A stretch of DNA of 22,436 bases. Source: a virus. Of this stretch, positions 6,428 through 19,011 are shown one piece after another; the stretch's first letter is position 1; each line of letters opens with the position of its first letter. A program made the position numbers and the translations under genes. The stretch spans positions 1 to 22,436 of the IMG/VR virus record IMGVR_UViG_3300044638_005128; one strand, 5' to 3'. The notes under the pieces were generated by a model that saw only the letters and a program-made list of their open reading frames with translations, had not been told where the DNA came from and did no database searches.

Positions 6428-7528
6428 TTAAAACAGTCCACCAGCGGTCTTTGCTGCCGCTGCTGTAGACAAAATACCTGTGCCTAAACCAGCGATCTGC
6501 TGGAAGGGGCTTGGAGTAGCCATGTTTTGCGTTGTGACGCCCATTTGGGTGGACGGCGCACCTTTGTAGATGTCGGACAAGAAGCCCAACTGCTGATAAG
6601 GCTGCATGTTCTGTGAAAGAACGTTTTGACGTGCGGCATCCAACTCGGCTTGAGATTGCTTTTGCTGCATTGAACCCAAGTTGAACAAGAAATTGACATC
6701 CTGCTGACCAAGGCCCTGTGCCTGTTGGCCAAGACCCGCCACTTGCGCGCCCATATTTGCCTGCTGGCCGGCCAAAGAACCGAGGCCCTGAGCTAACTGA
6801 GAGCCCATGCCAAACTGCTGACCGGCTAAAGAACCAATGCCCGCGCCAATGTTTGCCAATTGATTAGCACCACCCATTTGAACTTGCTGCTGCTGCTGTG
6901 CAGTACTTAATGCTTGGCCATAGCCTTGCTGCATTGCATTTGCAATGGCTTGGTTTTGTGTTTGAGCCAAATTACGTCCCAATTCAGCACGTTGAATGCC
7001 TTCACGAGAACCGCCAAAAGCTCCTGATTTTGCAGCCTGTGCTTGTAAGTTCTGACCCTGAATGCCTGCTTGACGATTCATCTCTTGCAACTGCTGATTC
7101 AGTTGCAAGTTCATGTAAGGGTTCATGTATTGAGCAATTTGCTGCTCACCAATAGGACGCGCCGCACCCAAGGTATTTTGGGCGGCCATGCCGGTCAAAC
7201 CCTGCGCTACATTGAATTGATTGCGGGTATCAGCACCCTGCAAGACATTCGTGGCTTGTCCCAACAAGTTCTGTCCGCCCACCATTTGAGTAGCGGCATT
7301 TGATAGATACGGCTGATATGCACCAATTCCAGCAGCCCCTGCGTTCAGAGCATTCTGCTGGTTTTGTGTCAACCCCGCGATCTGGTAATCGGGAGCTAAA
7401 TATCGACCCTCGGTTGCGGCCCGATTTGTTGCATCGACTTGGCCCTTGGCGCTTTCTAATAAGCCCGTTTTAAAGGCTTCAATTAGCGGTGCTTCGCGTA
7501 CTATCTGGGTTTCTTCGTTTATGGCCAT
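6428..7528 (-). CDS. Gln/Ala/Gly-rich virion protein (366 aa)
   Basis: GAGG lies 7-8 nt before ATG, and the upstream gene stops 3 nt before it. The product is extremely rich in Gln, Ala and Gly. Residues about 130-205 contain the recurring phage signature QYMNPYMN followed by AAKSGAFGGSREG and AELGRNL, which I recognise from uncultured-phage structural proteins. Residues about 207-275 are near-repetitive (QQQQQ, then GSLAGQQ at two places, and GLGQQ at two places). The C-terminal 60 residues are Gly/Ala hydrophobic, ending GILSTAAAAKTAGGLF, and could insert in a membrane or pack inside the virion. No enzyme motif is seen. It sits in the middle of the large virion genes and is probably a helical-bundle component of the ejection apparatus. 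The specific role is unknown. Confidence 0.55.
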   Translation of the reverse strand: MAINEETQIVREAPLIEAFKTGLLESAKGQVDATNRAATEGRYLAPDYQIAGLTQNQQNALNAGAAGIGAYQPYLSNAATQMVGGQNLLGQATNVLQGADTRNQFNVAQGLTGMAAQNTLGAARPIGEQQIAQYMNPYMNLQLNQQLQEMNRQAGIQGQNLQAQAAKSGAFGGSREGIQRAELGRNLAQTQNQAIANAMQQGYGQALSTAQQQQQVQMGGANQLANIGAGIGSLAGQQFGMGSQLAQGLGSLAGQQANMGAQVAGLGQQAQGLGQQDVNFLFNLGSMQQKQSQAELDAARQNVLSQNMQPYQQLGFLSDIYKGAPSTQMGVTTQNMATPSPFQQIAGLGTGILSTAAAAKTAGGLF

Positions 7529-7531
7529 GGT

Positions 7532-10500
7532 TTAACCTCGTGCTGCGTTCTTTTCAAGTTGATGCATAAGAGCGTACATGCGTTTCGCTCCGGCTCGTCT
7601 GTCGCCTTTACCTGCTCCACGAACAGCTTTGGCAGTCATTACGAATTCGCCGTCAGACAGCATTGCAGGGATTGAATCAGAGGTCGCGGTCCCCGGACCG
7701 TCAATTTGACCATTGCGTCGAGGATAACCTCCCTGAGCCAATCCTGCAATACCGCCCATGTTCATAAACTTAGCTGGAACAGACGTAACTTCCTGTTTGT
7801 CTTGTGGCAAAGTAGGCATTACACGCTGTACTCCGGGAAGTGTGTAATTTACATCGGGAATGGTTGTGATCCCCCCTGTTACTGTATCGGGCACTGCAGG
7901 TGTTCCCTTGCGCGTGCTTAATTCACCTAATGGGCCGGTAGGCGACAAGTAGGAGCTCAGGGCGTTAGCATTGTTATAGGTCTGTGCTACAGGCGCGGGG
8001 GCCGCGATTGGTGTACGAGCGCCCGTGGCTGGGTCAACCTTATAGTTGCCCAAAATGGCTTCATTCTTAGCGTTGTAATACCGAGTAATTACCTCTGGCA
8101 GTCCTAAACCAGAAGCAACTGCATATTTCTGGGGAGTAATGCCACTCACATCCATGCCCGCAGCTATTTGCAGATCATCAATTGCGGGATACGACCCAGT
8201 TCCGCCGGTAGGCATTTGTGTGCCGCCTACCGTTGTTTTTGGCATTGTTTTTATACCACCCGGGGCTAAGTTAAAACCGGCGGTATTGGAAAACACAGTG
8301 GAAGTTCCAGTTGGGATAACAGTGGCGAGCTTAGTGGGAGAGGCTGTACCAAACTTAACGCCCTGCCCTGTCATGGAAGACAAATCCGCATCAGTCAAAC
8401 CAAATTTAGTTTTAATGTAATCAAAGTTGGTGTTATAACTAGCCAGCAAACCGTTTAACAAATTGATGTCGCCTGCGACGAAGGCGTTATACATCGCCTC
8501 ATCTGCTGCGCTGTATTTTTCGCCGGTTGGGCTTAATACAGTATCTCTAGCGTTTATGGTTGTTGTGCCCGCAGGTGGAGTATAAAAATCAACACCTTCG
8601 CGCTGATCAATCCACGCTATATCGGCAGCCGGCAAATTAAAACGTGTTTGAATCTCGTCCGCCGTTACTTTGTTGTCTGTAATAAGTTGGTTGACTTTAG
8701 CTGAATCGCCCGCTTTGTAAGCATCGTATATTTGTTTATCTACGCCACCACCAAGGTAGTAATGCATGGGCATTGCATCAGCAATACCACCCTCAGCAAA
8801 ACGCTCAGGCATGGCATCAACAATACCGCCTGTTGCCATGCCGGGGGGCTTTCTTAAAGAGCCGTCGTAGTACTGCACACCGGGCATGTTTTGCACATAA
8901 AAGCGATAAGGGTTATCCCTCATCAGTGATTCTGATGAGCCGGGGCCGCCTTTGAGCATTTTGCTTGTGTCGGATTCTTGGATAGGACGTGGGCTAAAAC
9001 CACCCATTAAGCCTAATGTGCCAAGGCCTACTGCAGTCATTGGACCGTAAGTAGACACAATACCGGGAGAAGCTGCTTTATACGCGTTTTGATATGCCGC
9101 TTCCTTCATGGCCGGCGTTGCATCAGGAATGCGCGCTGCCAGATCCGTAACAGCCTTGGCCCCTGCTTCTTGAGCCGCGGGCATGCCAGCTTGCTGAATG
9201 CCAGTGGGAGAGAGGTTGTTTCTGTAGAAATCTTTAGCGCTATCAAAAAAACTAGGCTGCTGGTTAGACATAATCCCTGTTTTGTCAAACGCGCCGGGGA
9301 ACTGCGTACCATCCATTGGAGTACCAATAGAAGGAGCAATTGCATTTCCTGTCGAAGCACTTGTCATGGCAGGAGGCTGCGTGTTAATAGGGGGAGCCAC
9401 TGCATTACCACTGGTCGCAGTTGCAGCACTTGCATCTACAGGGGGAGCCACGGAGCCCATGGCTGTGTTGCTCAATGGCGCTTCACCAAACGCACCATAA
9501 TTTGTAGTGGTAGGCGCAAAAGGATTTGCTGCGTTCTGTGTTACTACTGCGCCGTTAGGCATGGTAACTTGCTCACCCACGTTGCCTACTGACAATTTTT
9601 TAGCGGCAAACGCCGAATCTCCTGCACCCGCAGTGGTGTCTCCAACTGCTGAATTAGGATTGTAAAATGCTTCAGGATTAGTTTTATATAATTCCCCGGC
9701 ATATGCTTCGCGTGCCGCGTTTGACGTAGCGTTATCCGTCAATGCCCCCTGAGCCGTGTATTCAGGGAAAGGAGGAGGTGTAACCGCCCCAGTAAACTTG
9801 TCAATTTGACCACCAATAGTGGTTGGACCTGTATAACTACCGGCAGCAAACGCATCTGTACCACTAAAAGCACCTGCAGCACCGGCTGTTGCGCCAGCGG
9901 TCAAACCACCCACAGCACCTGCTTTCAACGCGTCTTTTAAATTGCCACCAGCAAGAAGAGTAGAGCCAGCACTGCCCACAAAACCACTGACCGCGGCTAC
10001 CGCAGCAGTAGACGTAGCGCCCATAAAAGTAGCAGCAGCAGGGCCTAAGAAGAAGCCGAGGGCCACGGTTGTGACAATACGGCCCACGGTGCTATTTGCA
10101 AAGCTTTTAACGGCTCTGCCCACAGACTTAAACGCGTTGCCAATCTCTTTAAACAAATTAAAGAACTCAGGCAAACCTGTGTCAGGGTTAATCGTGCCGC
10201 TACCGCCTTTGCGGCGCAGCATGCGTGCTTCGGCAGGGGTAATGTGGGCCAACATGGTGTCGCCATTACGGCCATAGTCAGCAATAGCCTTGGCTACAGG
10301 CTTGAGTTCAGCAATACCGCCTTTGGCAAAAGCCTGCACACCCGCGGGCTCACCAATCATCTGGTCCACAGCCATGTTCAACGCAGCAAAGAATTGGGGA
10401 TCAAACTGCTCTGGCAAGATTTCGTCAGGCGCGCCCATTTCCTTGTACTTGGCACGAATCTCGGCGTACTGCTCAGGATTAGCCAGAATCTCATCCACCA

Positions 10501-15361: not shown

Positions 15362-15454
15362 TCACACCAAAGTCCATGCAATTATGTACGTGCCAAAGAT
15401 GACAAAGGCCACAAGACAGGCTGCGGCAATGAATGCTTCAGCCCAGTCCCACAT
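15362..15454 (-). CDS. Single-TM micropeptide (30 aa) in the lysis region
   Basis: The ATG at 15452-15454 shares its last base with the TGA of the kinase gene (TGATG), and the peptide ends at TGA 15362-15364, just before the next gene. It begins MWDWAEAFIAAACL and continues as one hydrophobic helix (VAFVIFGTYIIAW) that fills nearly the whole peptide. It bridges an otherwise unexplained 95-base gap, and both junctions match the coupling style of the operon. Tiny TM peptides in lysis cassettes are often holin regulators or accessory holins, but no family is recognised. Confidence rests on junctions and composition. Confidence 0.6.
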   Translation of the reverse strand: MWDWAEAFIAAACLVAFVIFGTYIIAWTLV

Positions 15455-16239
15455 CACACACCCATTTGTTTGCGTATTTTAGTAGCCGAAATTGCGTGTG
15501 TAGCATCGTCAAAAGACTCCTGCTCAATTTTATATCCTACATCTCGACCATAGGTAATATTTACTACATTAGGCACAAGCTGTATTTCGTACTGACCTTG
15601 ATACAAAGGGTCTAAATCACGCTTGATAAAGTCTTTGACCTGATTGGCCGCAAACGGGTTTGAGCCGTTCCAACCCTGACAGTCTCTAATTTGAATCACA
15701 ACCTGACCAGTCTTTGCCAAGGCTTTTTCAAACAGCTTACGATGACCTTCATGCCAAGGTTGCCATCTGCCAAGCATCTGCACAGTTTCTTTTTGCCAAT
15801 CAAAGACAGGACGTTGGCGGTTGTCCAAGATGTGGGCGGCAATGAACTCACTCCACTTCTCAGCCTTTTGTTCAGTAATCCTAAAGTCATACTGCTCTGG
15901 GGCAACAAACACCTTGTTGGTATCTTCAAATCGGCCTTGATTGATGGTGTCAACCCAGACAGTCCAGTCAGCCTTGAAGTTGTTACGCATCTCAACCAGA
16001 GGGGCAACAAAGTCACAGATAACATAATCCACGTCGTAGCTATCGGCCAACTCGCGCATCCGCAAGCTTTGGCGAATACGTCCTTCATGGGAAAAGTCCC
16101 AATCGTTGTATTTCTTACGAACATCATCAGCGTTCAGCCACATGACTGTTTTGCGCTCGTTTTGCAAATGTTCAAGAATGTGCTGCGCTAGGTAAGTTTT
16201 ACCAGCACCGGGCAAACCCATAACTAGAATTCTTTTCAT
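15454..16239 (-). CDS. Two-domain nucleotide enzyme: APS-kinase-like P-loop kinase + HxGH nucleotidyltransferase (261 aa)
   Basis: Residues 1-140 form a kinase domain: P-loop GLPGAGKT (8-15), then LNADDVR (35-41) and DFSHEGRI (48-55), which match the LDGDNVR and GFSxxDR positions of adenylylsulfate kinases, and CDFVAP (75-80) matching the FISP strand. Residues 150-261 form a nucleotidyltransferase: GRWQPWHEGH (157-166, HxGH class), NPFAANQ (194-200) and ISATKIR (250-256), closest by eye to NMN adenylyltransferase (NadM/NadR style). A pairing of kinase and adenylyltransferase could make PAPS or act in NAD salvage, as NadR does in the opposite domain order. The start has AAGG upstream and overlaps the sulfotransferase stop by 4 nt, which favours PAPS supply. 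Real ATP sulfurylases use a different HxxH context, so sulfate activation is not proven. Confidence 0.75.
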   Translation of the reverse strand: MKRILVMGLPGAGKTYLAQHILEHLQNERKTVMWLNADDVRKKYNDWDFSHEGRIRQSLRMRELADSYDVDYVICDFVAPLVEMRNNFKADWTVWVDTINQGRFEDTNKVFVAPEQYDFRITEQKAEKWSEFIAAHILDNRQRPVFDWQKETVQMLGRWQPWHEGHRKLFEKALAKTGQVVIQIRDCQGWNGSNPFAANQVKDFIKRDLDPLYQGQYEIQLVPNVVNITYGRDVGYKIEQESFDDATHAISATKIRKQMGV

Positions 16240-17057
16240 CCCTTGACCTTATAAAGTTGTTTGATTGCAAACTCTGGTGCGGGGGTGCGCCAAAAGTCTT
16301 TGCCAGCATACTTGTCCCAAATTGATTTAGGAAGAATTGATGGGCGTTCTTGCCATGTTACTTCTTTCCTGACTGTGTGCAGACTTTTCATGTTCAAGGC
16401 CTTGTCATACACCTCATTTTCATACTCAACATTTTTAAAGTCATGTTCGTAATAAGGCTTGCCAATAAACCCGTAAATCTCACGCATCACGCCCTCAGGC
16501 TTTTTGCATAACGATTCGTACTCAACCAACATAATCATGTCAGGGTTTAACAGTAAACCTTCTTCTAGGAAGTAATAGGGCTTGACCACCTGACCTTCCT
16601 TCTTCACATCCATCAAAGCATCGCACCTCGTGGTAACAGTCTGCCTTGCTTCGTCATCTGTTAATGTTGCGCCATACAAAGAATTTTTAGCCGCAATACG
16701 TTCAAAACTATCAAGTATCCAAGGCAAGTCCCGAACACAACAGATAATTTTGGTTTGTGGGTAGAGGTCTTTTAAAAGAGATGTTTTAGCAGTCCAACCT
16801 CGGCTAGTGTCAAATACTGTGTTTGGTGTGACTGCTTTGTAGTAAGCATTAAACAAATCTTTAAGTATCTGTTTGCGTCTTTCTTCATCTACTAAATGGT
16901 TGCTCTCACTGGCCGTAATGACGTTAATGGTTGATGTAACCAAGTTTTGTACTGGCGATGAAATATCTGCATAAAATTCAGGGTTTTGACGCAAGATAGC
17001 CGAAAGCAAGGTTGAGCCTGACCTTGGTAAACCTGAGATAAAGAAGAACTCTTTCAT
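16236..17057 (-). CDS. Sulfotransferase, PAPS-dependent type (273 aa)
   Basis: It would transfer a sulfuryl group from PAPS to an acceptor not identifiable here. The 5'-phosphosulfate loop is ISGLPRSGSTLL (7-18). The 3'-phosphate site is CCVRDLPWILDSFER (106-120), where R109 and S117 are 8 residues apart, as are R130 and S138 in human SULT1A1. The rest matches bacterial sulfotransferase-3 type proteins in length (250-300 aa) and pattern, such as LVEYESLCKKPEGVMREIYGFIG (broken here by VEY and LCKK). I start at ATG 17055-17057, two bases after the upstream TAA, because a further TTG start would add 8 residues before the conserved strand and run into the upstream gene. The gene is coupled by ATGA to the kinase gene. 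A host or virion glycan, or a small molecule, are possible acceptors. Confidence 0.85.
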   Translation of the reverse strand: MKEFFFISGLPRSGSTLLSAILRQNPEFYADISSPVQNLVTSTINVITASESNHLVDEERRKQILKDLFNAYYKAVTPNTVFDTSRGWTAKTSLLKDLYPQTKIICCVRDLPWILDSFERIAAKNSLYGATLTDDEARQTVTTRCDALMDVKKEGQVVKPYYFLEEGLLLNPDMIMLVEYESLCKKPEGVMREIYGFIGKPYYEHDFKNVEYENEVYDKALNMKSLHTVRKEVTWQERPSILPKSIWDKYAGKDFWRTPAPEFAIKQLYKVKG

Positions 17058-17059
17058 GC

Positions 17060-17488
17060 TTAAGATTCTTGTGCAACCCAATTGACTGTGGCTTCATCCC
17101 ATTCATAACGCACATTGCCACCATTTATAACTGCATCAGCGGGTCTTGCTACAGGAGCAGCCCATGACATTGTGTCTAAATAACCAACCCAAGATGGATA
17201 AGGTTTACGGGCTTCATGTTCAGCAGTTCTAGCTGCGGTGTATTCTTCTTCTGTCAATACTTGCAAAACACCCGCAATGGTTGTGTCTGCATCGTCATCG
17301 CAAGTGCCATAGTACTTGGGCGCTGTTAGATATGTGCCATCAGGCGTTGTTGCTACAGGCCAAGTTGAACTGTTATTCCACAAATAAACCCAACCTTTGA
17401 TATCGGGCAGAGATGGCCCGGTGCGTTGCGGCTCTACTGTGCAAGGTATTTTAGTTGCTGCATCTACTTCGGTTATTACAATATACAT
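17060..17488 (-). CDS. Unknown small protein of the tail-fibre region (142 aa)
   Basis: AAGAGA lies 5-10 nt before the start ATG. The product begins MYIVITEVDAATKIPCTVEPQ and carries WVYLWNNSSTWPVA (33-46), an acidic CDDDADTTIAGV segment (63-74), VLTEEEYTAAR (77-87) and a Trp-rich end (RYEWDEATVNWVAQ). It has no signal peptide, TM segment or known catalytic motif. It follows the adhesin and precedes the sulfotransferase by 2 nt. The Trp-rich C-terminus and its place after a fibre recall tail-fibre assembly proteins, but I cannot confirm the family. The composition suggests a compact soluble domain. Confidence 0.6.
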   Translation of the reverse strand: MYIVITEVDAATKIPCTVEPQRTGPSLPDIKGWVYLWNNSSTWPVATTPDGTYLTAPKYYGTCDDDADTTIAGVLQVLTEEEYTAARTAEHEARKPYPSWVGYLDTMSWAAPVARPADAVINGGNVRYEWDEATVNWVAQES

Positions 17489-17544
17489 AATGTCTCTTTT
17501 AATCCAACAAGTTTTGTAAGCTGTCCGTTAAAGAAATTAAAGGC

Positions 17545-19011
17545 TTAAGCTGCCACTCTACGAATTGCTCGAACACGGTTGTATTGAGATTTGTAGTAGT
17601 TGCCGTACTGACGACCGTTACTAAAGTTCTGTAACCATGCTTTTCCGGTAGCAGCAGTATTCTGGGTACTAGACCAGTAATAGCCATTTACATATGCCTC
17701 TGAGTTTGGAATTTGGAATGCTGTTGCCGAAGTTCGTGCAGGTGTTCCAGCCGTGTAGTTTGAAGCCCTAGCTGGTACTGCATTAGGGTTTATGCCTGAA
17801 GCGGTAGAGTTGGATGCTGTGTCGGGTTTTAAATTAAAATAGCAAACGTCAAGCTCATTCTTAGCGGGCATATACCAATCAGAGAACCCGCCAATGGTTA
17901 AACCTTCGCAGAAGAAAGCTGCGGGGTTAGCTGCACTGTTCAGGTTAGCACTATTTGTCGGGCCATTAATATCCGAGTCCGTGCCAGCTACTGCCGACCC
18001 TGTGTTTCTATATCTTATGTTTAAATCTTGTGCGGATGCCGCAGGGCCAACAATTAAGTTGTGCGTAGCTGTACCACCTACACCAATCTGACCAGCAAAA
18101 AATCCGCCACCAAAAGCCGCGCCAATTGCTGGTAGCGGTGTTGTTATTGAATTACTTGCCGCACTTGCCGCACTTTGACCAACAGAGTTAGTTGCTTTAA
18201 CAGTAAATGTGTAACTCGTAGAAGGCGACAAACCGGAAACCGTAATTGTGCCGGAACCGGCTGTTGCCAGCGTACCTGTAATACTACTGGGGGACGATGT
18301 TGCTGTGTACAGTGTGATGGTTGCACCACCATCGCTTGCTGGCGCTGTGTATGCCACAGTTGCTGTGGTTGAGCTAGTCTGTGTAGCTGTACCAATAGTT
18401 GGTGCTCCGGGCACTGTAGCCGCAACAGAAGCTGTAGAGTTTGAATTTGCGCTTACAGCAGATACGGCGTTAGTTGCAGTCACCACGCAACGAATCGTGT
18501 TGCCAACGTCTGCTGCAACCAGCACATACGTACTAGAAGTCGCGCCACTGATATTGGTAGTGACACGTTGCCACTGATATGTAAATGTAGGTGTCGGAAC
18601 ACCAGTCCAAGTGCCATTTGTAGTTGAGAGGGTTTGACCAAAAGTTGCTGTACCTGAAACAACGGGGGCCACGGTATTCACAGGGGCATTACCCGCCACA
18701 GAAGCTGTAGAGTTGGAATTAGCCGAAACACCAGAAGGTGCAACTGAATTGGTAGCCGTTACAACACAGCGAATTGTGTTGGCGTAATCTGCTGCAACAA
18801 GCACGTATGTACTAGAAGTTGCGCCGCTAATATTTACGGCTGAACGTTGCCACTGATATGTAAATGTTGGCGCAGGTGCGCCTAGCCATGTACCGTTGGT
18901 TGTTGTAAGAGTTTGTCCAACGGTGGCCGTGCCGGTAACAGCAGGTGCAACCGTATTTACAGGGGCACTCCCGTAGGAGTTCCCCACAGCCATCATTAGA
19001 ATTCCACTCAT
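17545..19011 (-). CDS. Modular adhesin: two Ig-like + Fn3-like + C-type-lectin-like tip (488 aa)
   Basis: The start overlaps the upstream stop by 4 nt. Residues 16-108 and 109-199 are tandem Ig-like domains (APVNTVAP, then FTYQWQR and ISGATSSTYVLVAAD, then NTIRCVVTATN). Residues 200-292 are Fn3-like (VPGAPTIGTA, GLSPSTSYTFTVKATN). Residues about 300-488 are a head domain with GGFSDWYMPAKNELD and GYYWSST, ending near QYNRVRAIRRVAA, the pattern of DUF1566/Lcl-type C-type-lectin folds. Phage receptor-binding proteins and targets of diversity-generating retroelements (Mtd type) use this lectin fold with a ligand face near the C-terminus. It is probably a tail-fibre or spike tip binding the host surface. 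The tip is rich in AAC and TAC codons. No reverse transcriptase or template repeat is visible in this window. Confidence 0.75.
   Translation of the reverse strand: MSGILMMAVGNSYGSAPVNTVAPAVTGTATVGQTLTTTNGTWLGAPAPTFTYQWQRSAVNISGATSSTYVLVAADYANTIRCVVTATNSVAPSGVSANSNSTASVAGNAPVNTVAPVVSGTATFGQTLSTTNGTWTGVPTPTFTYQWQRVTTNISGATSSTYVLVAADVGNTIRCVVTATNAVSAVSANSNSTASVAATVPGAPTIGTATQTSSTTATVAYTAPASDGGATITLYTATSSPSSITGTLATAGSGTITVSGLSPSTSYTFTVKATNSVGQSAASAASNSITTPLPAIGAAFGGGFFAGQIGVGGTATHNLIVGPAASAQDLNIRYRNTGSAVAGTDSDINGPTNSANLNSAANPAAFFCEGLTIGGFSDWYMPAKNELDVCYFNLKPDTASNSTASGINPNAVPARASNYTAGTPARTSATAFQIPNSEAYVNGYYWSSTQNTAATGKAWLQNFSNGRQYGNYYKSQYNRVRAIRRVAA
18415..18966 (-). repeat. Tandem Ig-like domain repeat in the adhesin (2 x ~92 codons)
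   Basis: Codons 16-108 (18688-18966) and 109-199 (18415-18687) encode Ig-like domains that share long identical runs, such as the ISGATSSTYVLVAAD segment. At DNA level, blocks such as cgttgccactgatatgtaaa occur in both copies. The copies are partly diverged, so the duplication is not very recent. Confidence 0.85.

Follow-up and report, generated by a model that had tools for sequence, protein, structure and literature searches.

The DNA analysed here, all 22,436 bases of which we call the window, is the IMG/VR virus record IMGVR_UViG_3300044638_005128, and its minus strand carries all of the large genes. Tail-type proteins are encoded in it alongside the three marker genes that head the list below, and its phage character is clear.

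6428-7528: DNA-ejection-like protein, a marker of phage character.
11458-13578: virion structural protein, a marker of phage character.
13587-14063: phage lysozyme, a marker of phage character.
15454-16239, minus strand: P0001, a kinase-nucleotidyltransferase fusion of 261 aa that matches phrog_10255 over its full length (2.1e-49); predicted compact PAPS-synthase-like enzyme.
15457-15801, minus strand: HxGH nucleotidyltransferase domain of P0001 (residues 147-261), with GRWQPWHEGH, NPF, YGRDVGY and ISATKIR; NMNAT/PPAT-like.
15817-16239, minus strand: APS-kinase domain of P0001 (residues 1-141), with a GLPGAGKT P-loop, D38, R41, F49 and R54, and a short lid.
16236-17057, minus strand: P0002, a predicted PAPS-dependent sulfotransferase of 273 aa, type ST1, with GLPRSGST, R109 and S117; phrog_27463.
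17060-17488, minus strand: small 142-aa gene with a partial match to phrog_7759, immediately upstream of ST1.
17545-19011, minus strand: adhesin-like tail protein with fn3 and a C-terminal Lcl_C, from domain matches.
17560-17931, minus strand: Lcl_C tip domain (residues 361-484 of the adhesin-like protein, E=1.1e-10), which co-travels with ST1.

The first-pass annotation had described an ATGA-coupled pair at 15454-17057, lying between adhesin and lysis genes, and both parts of this description held. The two ORFs were confirmed on the minus strand, with the P0002 stop overlapping the P0001 start in the ATGA at 16236-16239, and the cassette is flanked by the fn3/Lcl_C adhesin-like gene on one side and the phage lysozyme on the other. 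Host contamination was considered and can be ruled out, since the pair is surrounded by phage genes and hundreds of viral contigs carry it.

P0002 is a PF13469 sulfotransferase with all the PAPS-binding signature residues; that it binds and uses PAPS is inferred. It scores above the cut-off for both PF13469 (E=2.5e-18, 67.6 bits against a cut-off of 27) and PF00685 (E=3.4e-11). The 5'-phosphosulfate loop GLPRSGST begins at residue 9, and the Arg/Ser pair for the 3'-phosphate, R109 and S117, is invariant in all 112 relatives that cover it (117 were aligned), in keeping with the earlier claim that both PAPS-binding elements are retained. The best PDB matches, TPST1/2, were weak (E about 0.01), as was an NCBIfam match to NoeE, a nodulation sulfotransferase.

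For P0001, the same annotation had proposed an APS-kinase-like domain on the strength of the motifs GLPGAGKT, LNADDVR, FSHEGRI and CDFVAP. All four are present, and the proposal is upheld by profile, fold and APS-binding residues, but with a shortened lid. Only residues 3-89 match PF01583 (APS_kinase), at 38.8 bits against a cut-off of 21.1. A profile search against the PDB, using a family profile of 43 diverse members, ranked APS kinases and PAPS synthases first (best E 5e-14), and the AlphaFold2 model of P0001 (pLDDT 91) had human PAPSS1 (PAPS synthase 1) as its top Foldseek match. On structural re-alignment, APS kinases reached a Z of 18.9, with an rmsd of 1.9 across 139 residues, while the next family, gluconate kinase, stopped at 15.2, and 30 entries with an APS-kinase or APS-kinase-like domain outranked every other kinase. 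Polynucleotide kinase, zeta toxin and other P-loop kinases were weaker candidates than APS kinase in both profile and fold. The refutation that had been set for this domain, namely a better alignment to ribosylnicotinamide or polynucleotide kinases together with the absence of APS-binding residues, was thus run and did not refute it.

In the M. tuberculosis CysC complex, Arg483 and Arg497 hold the phosphosulfate of APS, Phe492 and Phe576 stack its adenine and Asp480 is the likely base (PMC4373884). The counterparts of Asp480, Arg483, Arg497 and Phe492 in P0001 are D38, R41, R54 and F49, which are invariant or nearly so across the 43 diverse family members. The lid of P0001 is about 11 residues shorter than that of its haloarchaeal homologue, and the segment with the second stacking Phe (Phe576) is missing or unalignable; F104 was considered for this role and dropped, as a MAFFT alignment with the haloarchaeal proteins puts it on the KGxY motif. 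Lys562 of CysC falls at a variable position and is not kept, and Asp478 is replaced by Asn in most members. The cut-off of the apsK equivalog TIGR00455 was missed (28.1 against 138.7 bits), and the best NCBIfam score of the phage protein was to NF004041, a short adenylyl-sulfate-kinase-like subfamily. Given the short lid and the loss of Lys562, we class P0001 as a derived relative and not a canonical APS kinase. It belongs to the APS-kinase family and has a derived lid; its activity is inferred from fold and residues, and it remains possible that a close analogue of APS is the substrate.

In the second half of P0001, CTP_transf_like (PF01467) is matched at residues 156-183 (21.5 against a cut-off of 21), and GRWQPWHEGH, NPF, YGRDVGY and ISATKIR are largely invariant in the nucleotidyltransferase family. 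The nearest structures to its profile are NMN adenylyltransferases (best E 1.1e-10), mainly over the first half, and with the domain modelled alone (pLDDT 89) PPAT and NMNAT tie as the highest-ranking folds at a Z of about 10. No Pfam match of this domain to PF01747 (ATP sulfurylase Sat) was obtained, sulfurylases were absent from its profile matches down to E=10, and ATP sulfurylases were not among the listed rows of the domain-only fold re-alignment, a list that is not a full search. The cut-off of the NMNAT equivalog TIGR01527 was also missed widely by P0001 (28.9 against 181.2 bits). The domain is NMNAT/PPAT-like and, by sequence, outside the ATP-sulfurylase family PF01747 and no NMNAT equivalog. 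PAPSS1 chains do align with the whole P0001 model over 1-261, but with an rmsd of 16-20. Val/Ile at position 201, which may replace a phosphate-binding Arg of NMNAT, was not used as evidence. Formation of APS by this domain has moderate support and is inferred from context, without substrate data, because the domain shares a chain with an APS kinase in the order found in animal PAPS synthases, where the HXGH histidines are essential for the sulfurylase activity of PAPSS1 (PMC11697783).

Viral relatives of the fusion number more than 590, which is far above chance. A sulfotransferase lies in the flanks of 101 of 159 viral fusion loci, or 91 of 148 distinct loci after removal of 11 contigs that had been fetched twice, and none was found in the flanks of the other 57. 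The flanking sulfotransferases fall into at least 11 families (<50% identical) and share the strand of the fusion in all of the cases listed. On the kinase tree, the starred branches require ST1 and ST2 each to have changed five times or more, so the kinase-sulfotransferase pairing arose or was swapped repeatedly. In control phages, chosen as relatives of the 706-aa structural protein of the window, neither the kinase fusion nor a sulfotransferase was found in 80 loci or in 35 whole records. Because the conserved block, from about 15458 to 17500-18400, sits in backbones whose other DNA barely aligns, and because the relatives of the structural gene lack the pair, we reject the idea that the pair is kept only by common phage descent. 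A lack of co-conservation in relatives had also been named beforehand as a refutation; this too was run and did not refute the link, for P0001 and P0002 are conserved with each other and the fusion also with many other sulfotransferases.

The linkage is not universal. A sulfotransferase scored over cut-off in 24 of 42 IMG/VR kinase-bearing records, against none of the control records, and in 23 fusion-bearing records without a clear PF13469 match, PF00685 was found in none and PF03567 only in DLP_6. In this phage (L083, L445) the PF03567 match is an annotated sulfotransferase at record positions 38223-38837, about 90 kb from the fusion. In Casjensviridae (L082, L085, L086, L087) the fusion stands beside a NADAR-type gene, with cysteine dioxygenase and MazG-like genes close by, and the genomes of the members with the fusion yielded no sulfotransferase. 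Three contigs of more than 340 kb from very large phages (L190, L217, L227) likewise have the fusion without a clear sulfotransferase match. It is possible that phages of this kind use unrecognised or host sulfotransferases, or put PAPS or APS to some other use. Two further observations concern individual contigs: at L239:5037-5996 and L194:5488-6378 the sulfotransferase and the fusion are separated by an additional kinase-like ORF, and a 302-aa ORF of L096 looked sulfotransferase-like by eye, but matched no Pfam family and was rejected.

Around ST1 itself the association is much more specific. The 142-aa gene is immediately upstream of ST1 in 63 of 63 ST1 loci, and 62 of the 63 have the Lcl_C adhesin tip. 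Both are absent from all 96 of the remaining kinase loci, where the sulfotransferase is of a different type or lacking. The reciprocal search from ST1 recovered the fusion in 74 of 74 testable loci, the small gene in 75 of 75 and the tip in 74 of 74. DNA conservation among ST1 contigs typically stops near both borders of this four-gene block. The ST1 loci are mostly at least 90% identical, and the counts overstate their independence; deeper members of the module are few (L203, L212, L215, L223). ST1, the fusion, the small gene and the Lcl_C tip form one tightly linked, recently mobile module. The tip or the small protein could be the acceptor or a functional partner, a suggestion that rests on linkage only and leaves the acceptor unproven. 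Conserved tyrosines in both are too many for any single sulfation site to be singled out. The Legionella Lcl protein binds sulphated glycosaminoglycans (PMC11162425), and the relevance of this is uncertain.

The pairing extends to cellular genomes. All 7 of the loci examined on haloarchaeal plasmids (Natrinema, Halostagnicola, Halocatena, two Haladaptatus, Haloprofundus and Natronococcus) have the fusion directly downstream of a sulfotransferase, separated from it by no more than a single small ORF. The kinase there, checked in three, is a full-length canonical APS kinase with a full lid (8.3e-45), fused to the same nucleotidyltransferase. A YqcI/YcgG family gene joins the sulfotransferase and fusion in haloarchaeal cassettes (L435 8869-9618 and other loci).

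In SAR11 the kinase and nucleotidyltransferase are mostly two overlapping genes, as near 8001-8782 of L118. In six loci of one clade (L118, L091, L120, L090, L127, L133) the pair immediately precedes a TENA-like gene and aprMBA, i.e. AprM-like, AprB and AprA genes (APS reductase). Most other SAR11 pairs belong to a different cluster with a dimethylglycine-dehydrogenase-like gene; in L140, a gene beside the pair (8789-9637) matches HalD (halogenase-like), and the cluster also holds an M24 peptidase and a DMGDH-like oxidoreductase. Where the two domains are fused, as in some SAR11 genomes, the gene sits among apparent surface-glycan genes, glycosyltransferase-like and sugar-epimerase-like ORFs recognised by eye from the ORF sequence. 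PF13469 is matched in 24 of 29 SAR11 genomes. Sat was absent from 26 of 29 and CysD from all 33 SAR11 genomes searched, but these are partial assemblies from single cells or metagenomes and the absences are suggestive only. Two SAR11 genomes carry an apparently secreted protein of 726-773 aa between the split kinase and nucleotidyltransferase genes (L137:8424-10604, L167:6477-8798).

Among the other alphaproteobacteria, Bradyrhizobium has either tandem TPR-sulfotransferases next to genes for HlyD secretion, or a small sulfotransferase that directly follows the fusion or is convergent to it. HlyD genes, two tandem TPR-sulfotransferases and the fusion are found together in L103 (4048-8771), L105 and L110, and the Alsobacter locus (L111) has the fusion after genes for an RTX/cadherin protein and HlyD. 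These Bradyrhizobium and Alsobacter loci may represent a sulfated secreted adhesin system resembling rax, although this is no more than a possibility. A sulfotransferase also adjoins the fusion or the gene pair in SAR116 and another alphaproteobacterium, one bacterial sulfotransferase neighbour sits beside an autotransporter-like ORF, and several alphaproteobacterial fusion loci have no sulfotransferase nearby. CysD is encoded by some Bradyrhizobium-type genomes and by SAR116.

Considering these findings, the reading we favour, with a probability of roughly 0.6, is that the cassette is a self-contained sulfation module in which P0001 acts as a compact non-orthologous PAPS synthase feeding the sulfotransferase; the catalysis is inferred. 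The nucleotidyltransferase half of P0001 would convert ATP and sulfate to adenosine 5'-phosphosulfate (APS), a step that is itself an inference, and the APS-kinase half would turn this APS into PAPS by 3'-phosphorylation, as predicted from fold and residues without an assay. The translationally coupled P0002 would then use PAPS to sulfate an acceptor, which rests on its invariant PAPS-binding residues. The acceptor would most likely be a virion component, either the Lcl_C adhesin or the 17060-17488 product, since it is exactly these that travel with ST1; the host surface is not excluded. That the cassette makes and uses PAPS is likely and well supported, again by inference and without enzyme data. 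The original suggestion that the pair could make PAPS and modify a glycan, lipid or virion component is therefore supported, with the APS step inferred and the acceptor unidentified.

The alternative that survives best keeps the same chemistry and places the acceptor on the host, as a surface glycan or lipid modified for superinfection receptor masking or glycan remodelling. It differs from the main reading only in the acceptor, and its likelihood overlaps that of the main reading. The fused SAR11 versions in apparent surface-glycan islands and the weak NoeE match speak for it; however, ST1 is tied to an adhesin tip and a small gene and not to glycan genes, and the Bradyrhizobium sulfotransferases sit with secretion and adhesin-type genes, so that the balance leans slightly against it.

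An unlikely alternative is that the kinase makes PAPS from APS supplied by the host, through CysDN, Sat or a reversed APS reductase as in SAR11, leaving the nucleotidyltransferase only a side reaction (for instance APS and pyrophosphate to ATP and sulfate) or a role in binding or regulation. In its favour, the nucleotidyltransferase is outside PF01747, the SAR11 aprMBA neighbours could give APS without a sulfurylase, and CysD is present in some Bradyrhizobium-type and SAR116 genomes. Against it, nearly every member has the domain either fused to the kinase or encoded next to it, its catalytic HxGH, GR and ISATxxR motifs are kept, and most SAR11 genomes are without any known ATP sulfurylase.

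Less likely still is a donor that merely resembles PAPS, where some other small anion or a phosphate would be activated as an NMP derivative, given a 3'-phosphate and its group transferred. A CysC-like enzyme in Campylobacter capsule phosphoramidate synthesis offers an analogy, and the shortened kinase lid, the best score to NF004041 and the NMNAT/PPAT-like nucleotidyltransferase would fit. Yet the partner transferases are PF13469 proteins with intact PAPS signatures, the haloarchaeal kinase is a fully canonical APS kinase, and some SAR11 members adjoin APS reductase. Finally, NadR-like NAD salvage by a nucleoside kinase and NMN adenylyltransferase unrelated to the sulfotransferase, for which the closest sequence affinity of the nucleotidyltransferase (archaeal-type NMNAT) and the NADAR-domain gene adjoining a Casjensviridae homologue can be cited, is very unlikely. 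The kinase is APS-kinase-like (E=5e-14) and matches the NadR kinase poorly (8x7f, E=4.5e-4), the curated NMNAT cut-offs are missed widely (28.9 against 181.2), and the pairing with sulfotransferases recurs across phages, bacteria and archaea.

Under the favoured reading of a self-contained sulfation module, one common type of phage sulfotransferase now has a dedicated partner that makes PAPS and a link to a specific adhesin tip, and with it a concrete substrate to test. A bolder joint reading, which we regard as possible only, is that the nucleotidyltransferase adds a third, non-orthologous type of ATP sulfurylase to Sat (PF01747) and CysDN, one which in phages powers sulfation of the receptor-binding tip of the virion. 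Such a sulfurylase would have about 115 residues, would come from the NMNAT/PPAT lineage and would be partnered by an APS kinase in phages, alphaproteobacteria including SAR11, and haloarchaea. If the domain does make APS, the very abundant SAR11 of the ocean would contain an unrecognised ATP sulfurylase, which would bear on how these bacteria, mostly without a known sulfurylase yet carrying APS reductase, handle sulfite and sulfate. A PAPS synthase of 261 aa, if confirmed, would also be a useful tool enzyme.

No paper on the kinase-nucleotidyltransferase fusion was found in the open-access literature searched, and the closest comparisons are with its parts. P0002 shares the GxPRSGST PAPS loop and the R...S pair with the tyrosylprotein and TPR-type sulfotransferases (PF13469), but is without the TPR domain of the latter. 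The nucleotidyltransferase has the HxGH fold and the GRxQPxHxGH and ISxTxxR motifs of archaeal-type NMNAT/NadM and PPAT, whereas its second half has little sequence match to them, its YGRDVGY motif is distinct and the NMNAT cut-offs are missed. With CysC/PF01583 the kinase shares its fold and P-loop, the catalytic Asp, both phosphosulfate Arg residues and one of the stacking Phe residues; unlike CysC, the phage, SAR11 and most alphaproteobacterial members have a shortened lid, Asn for Asp478 and no conserved Lys562. As systems, the nearest bacterial parallel is the cysD-cysN-cysC-sulfotransferase cluster of C. jejuni HS:19 (PMC8743553), which likewise places dedicated sulfate activation beside a sulfotransferase. 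Rhizobium nodPQ/nodH and Xanthomonas raxPQ/raxST are also sulfation sets with a dedicated PAPS supply. Bacterial sets of this kind use CysD/CysN for APS, whereas the phage cassette would use one small fusion instead. The architecture of P0001 is that of animal PAPSS1/2, with an N-terminal APS kinase followed by a C-terminal HxGH adenylyltransferase in one chain, but it is reached in 261 aa against about 620, with a shortened lid and with an NMNAT/PPAT-like domain in place of PF01747.
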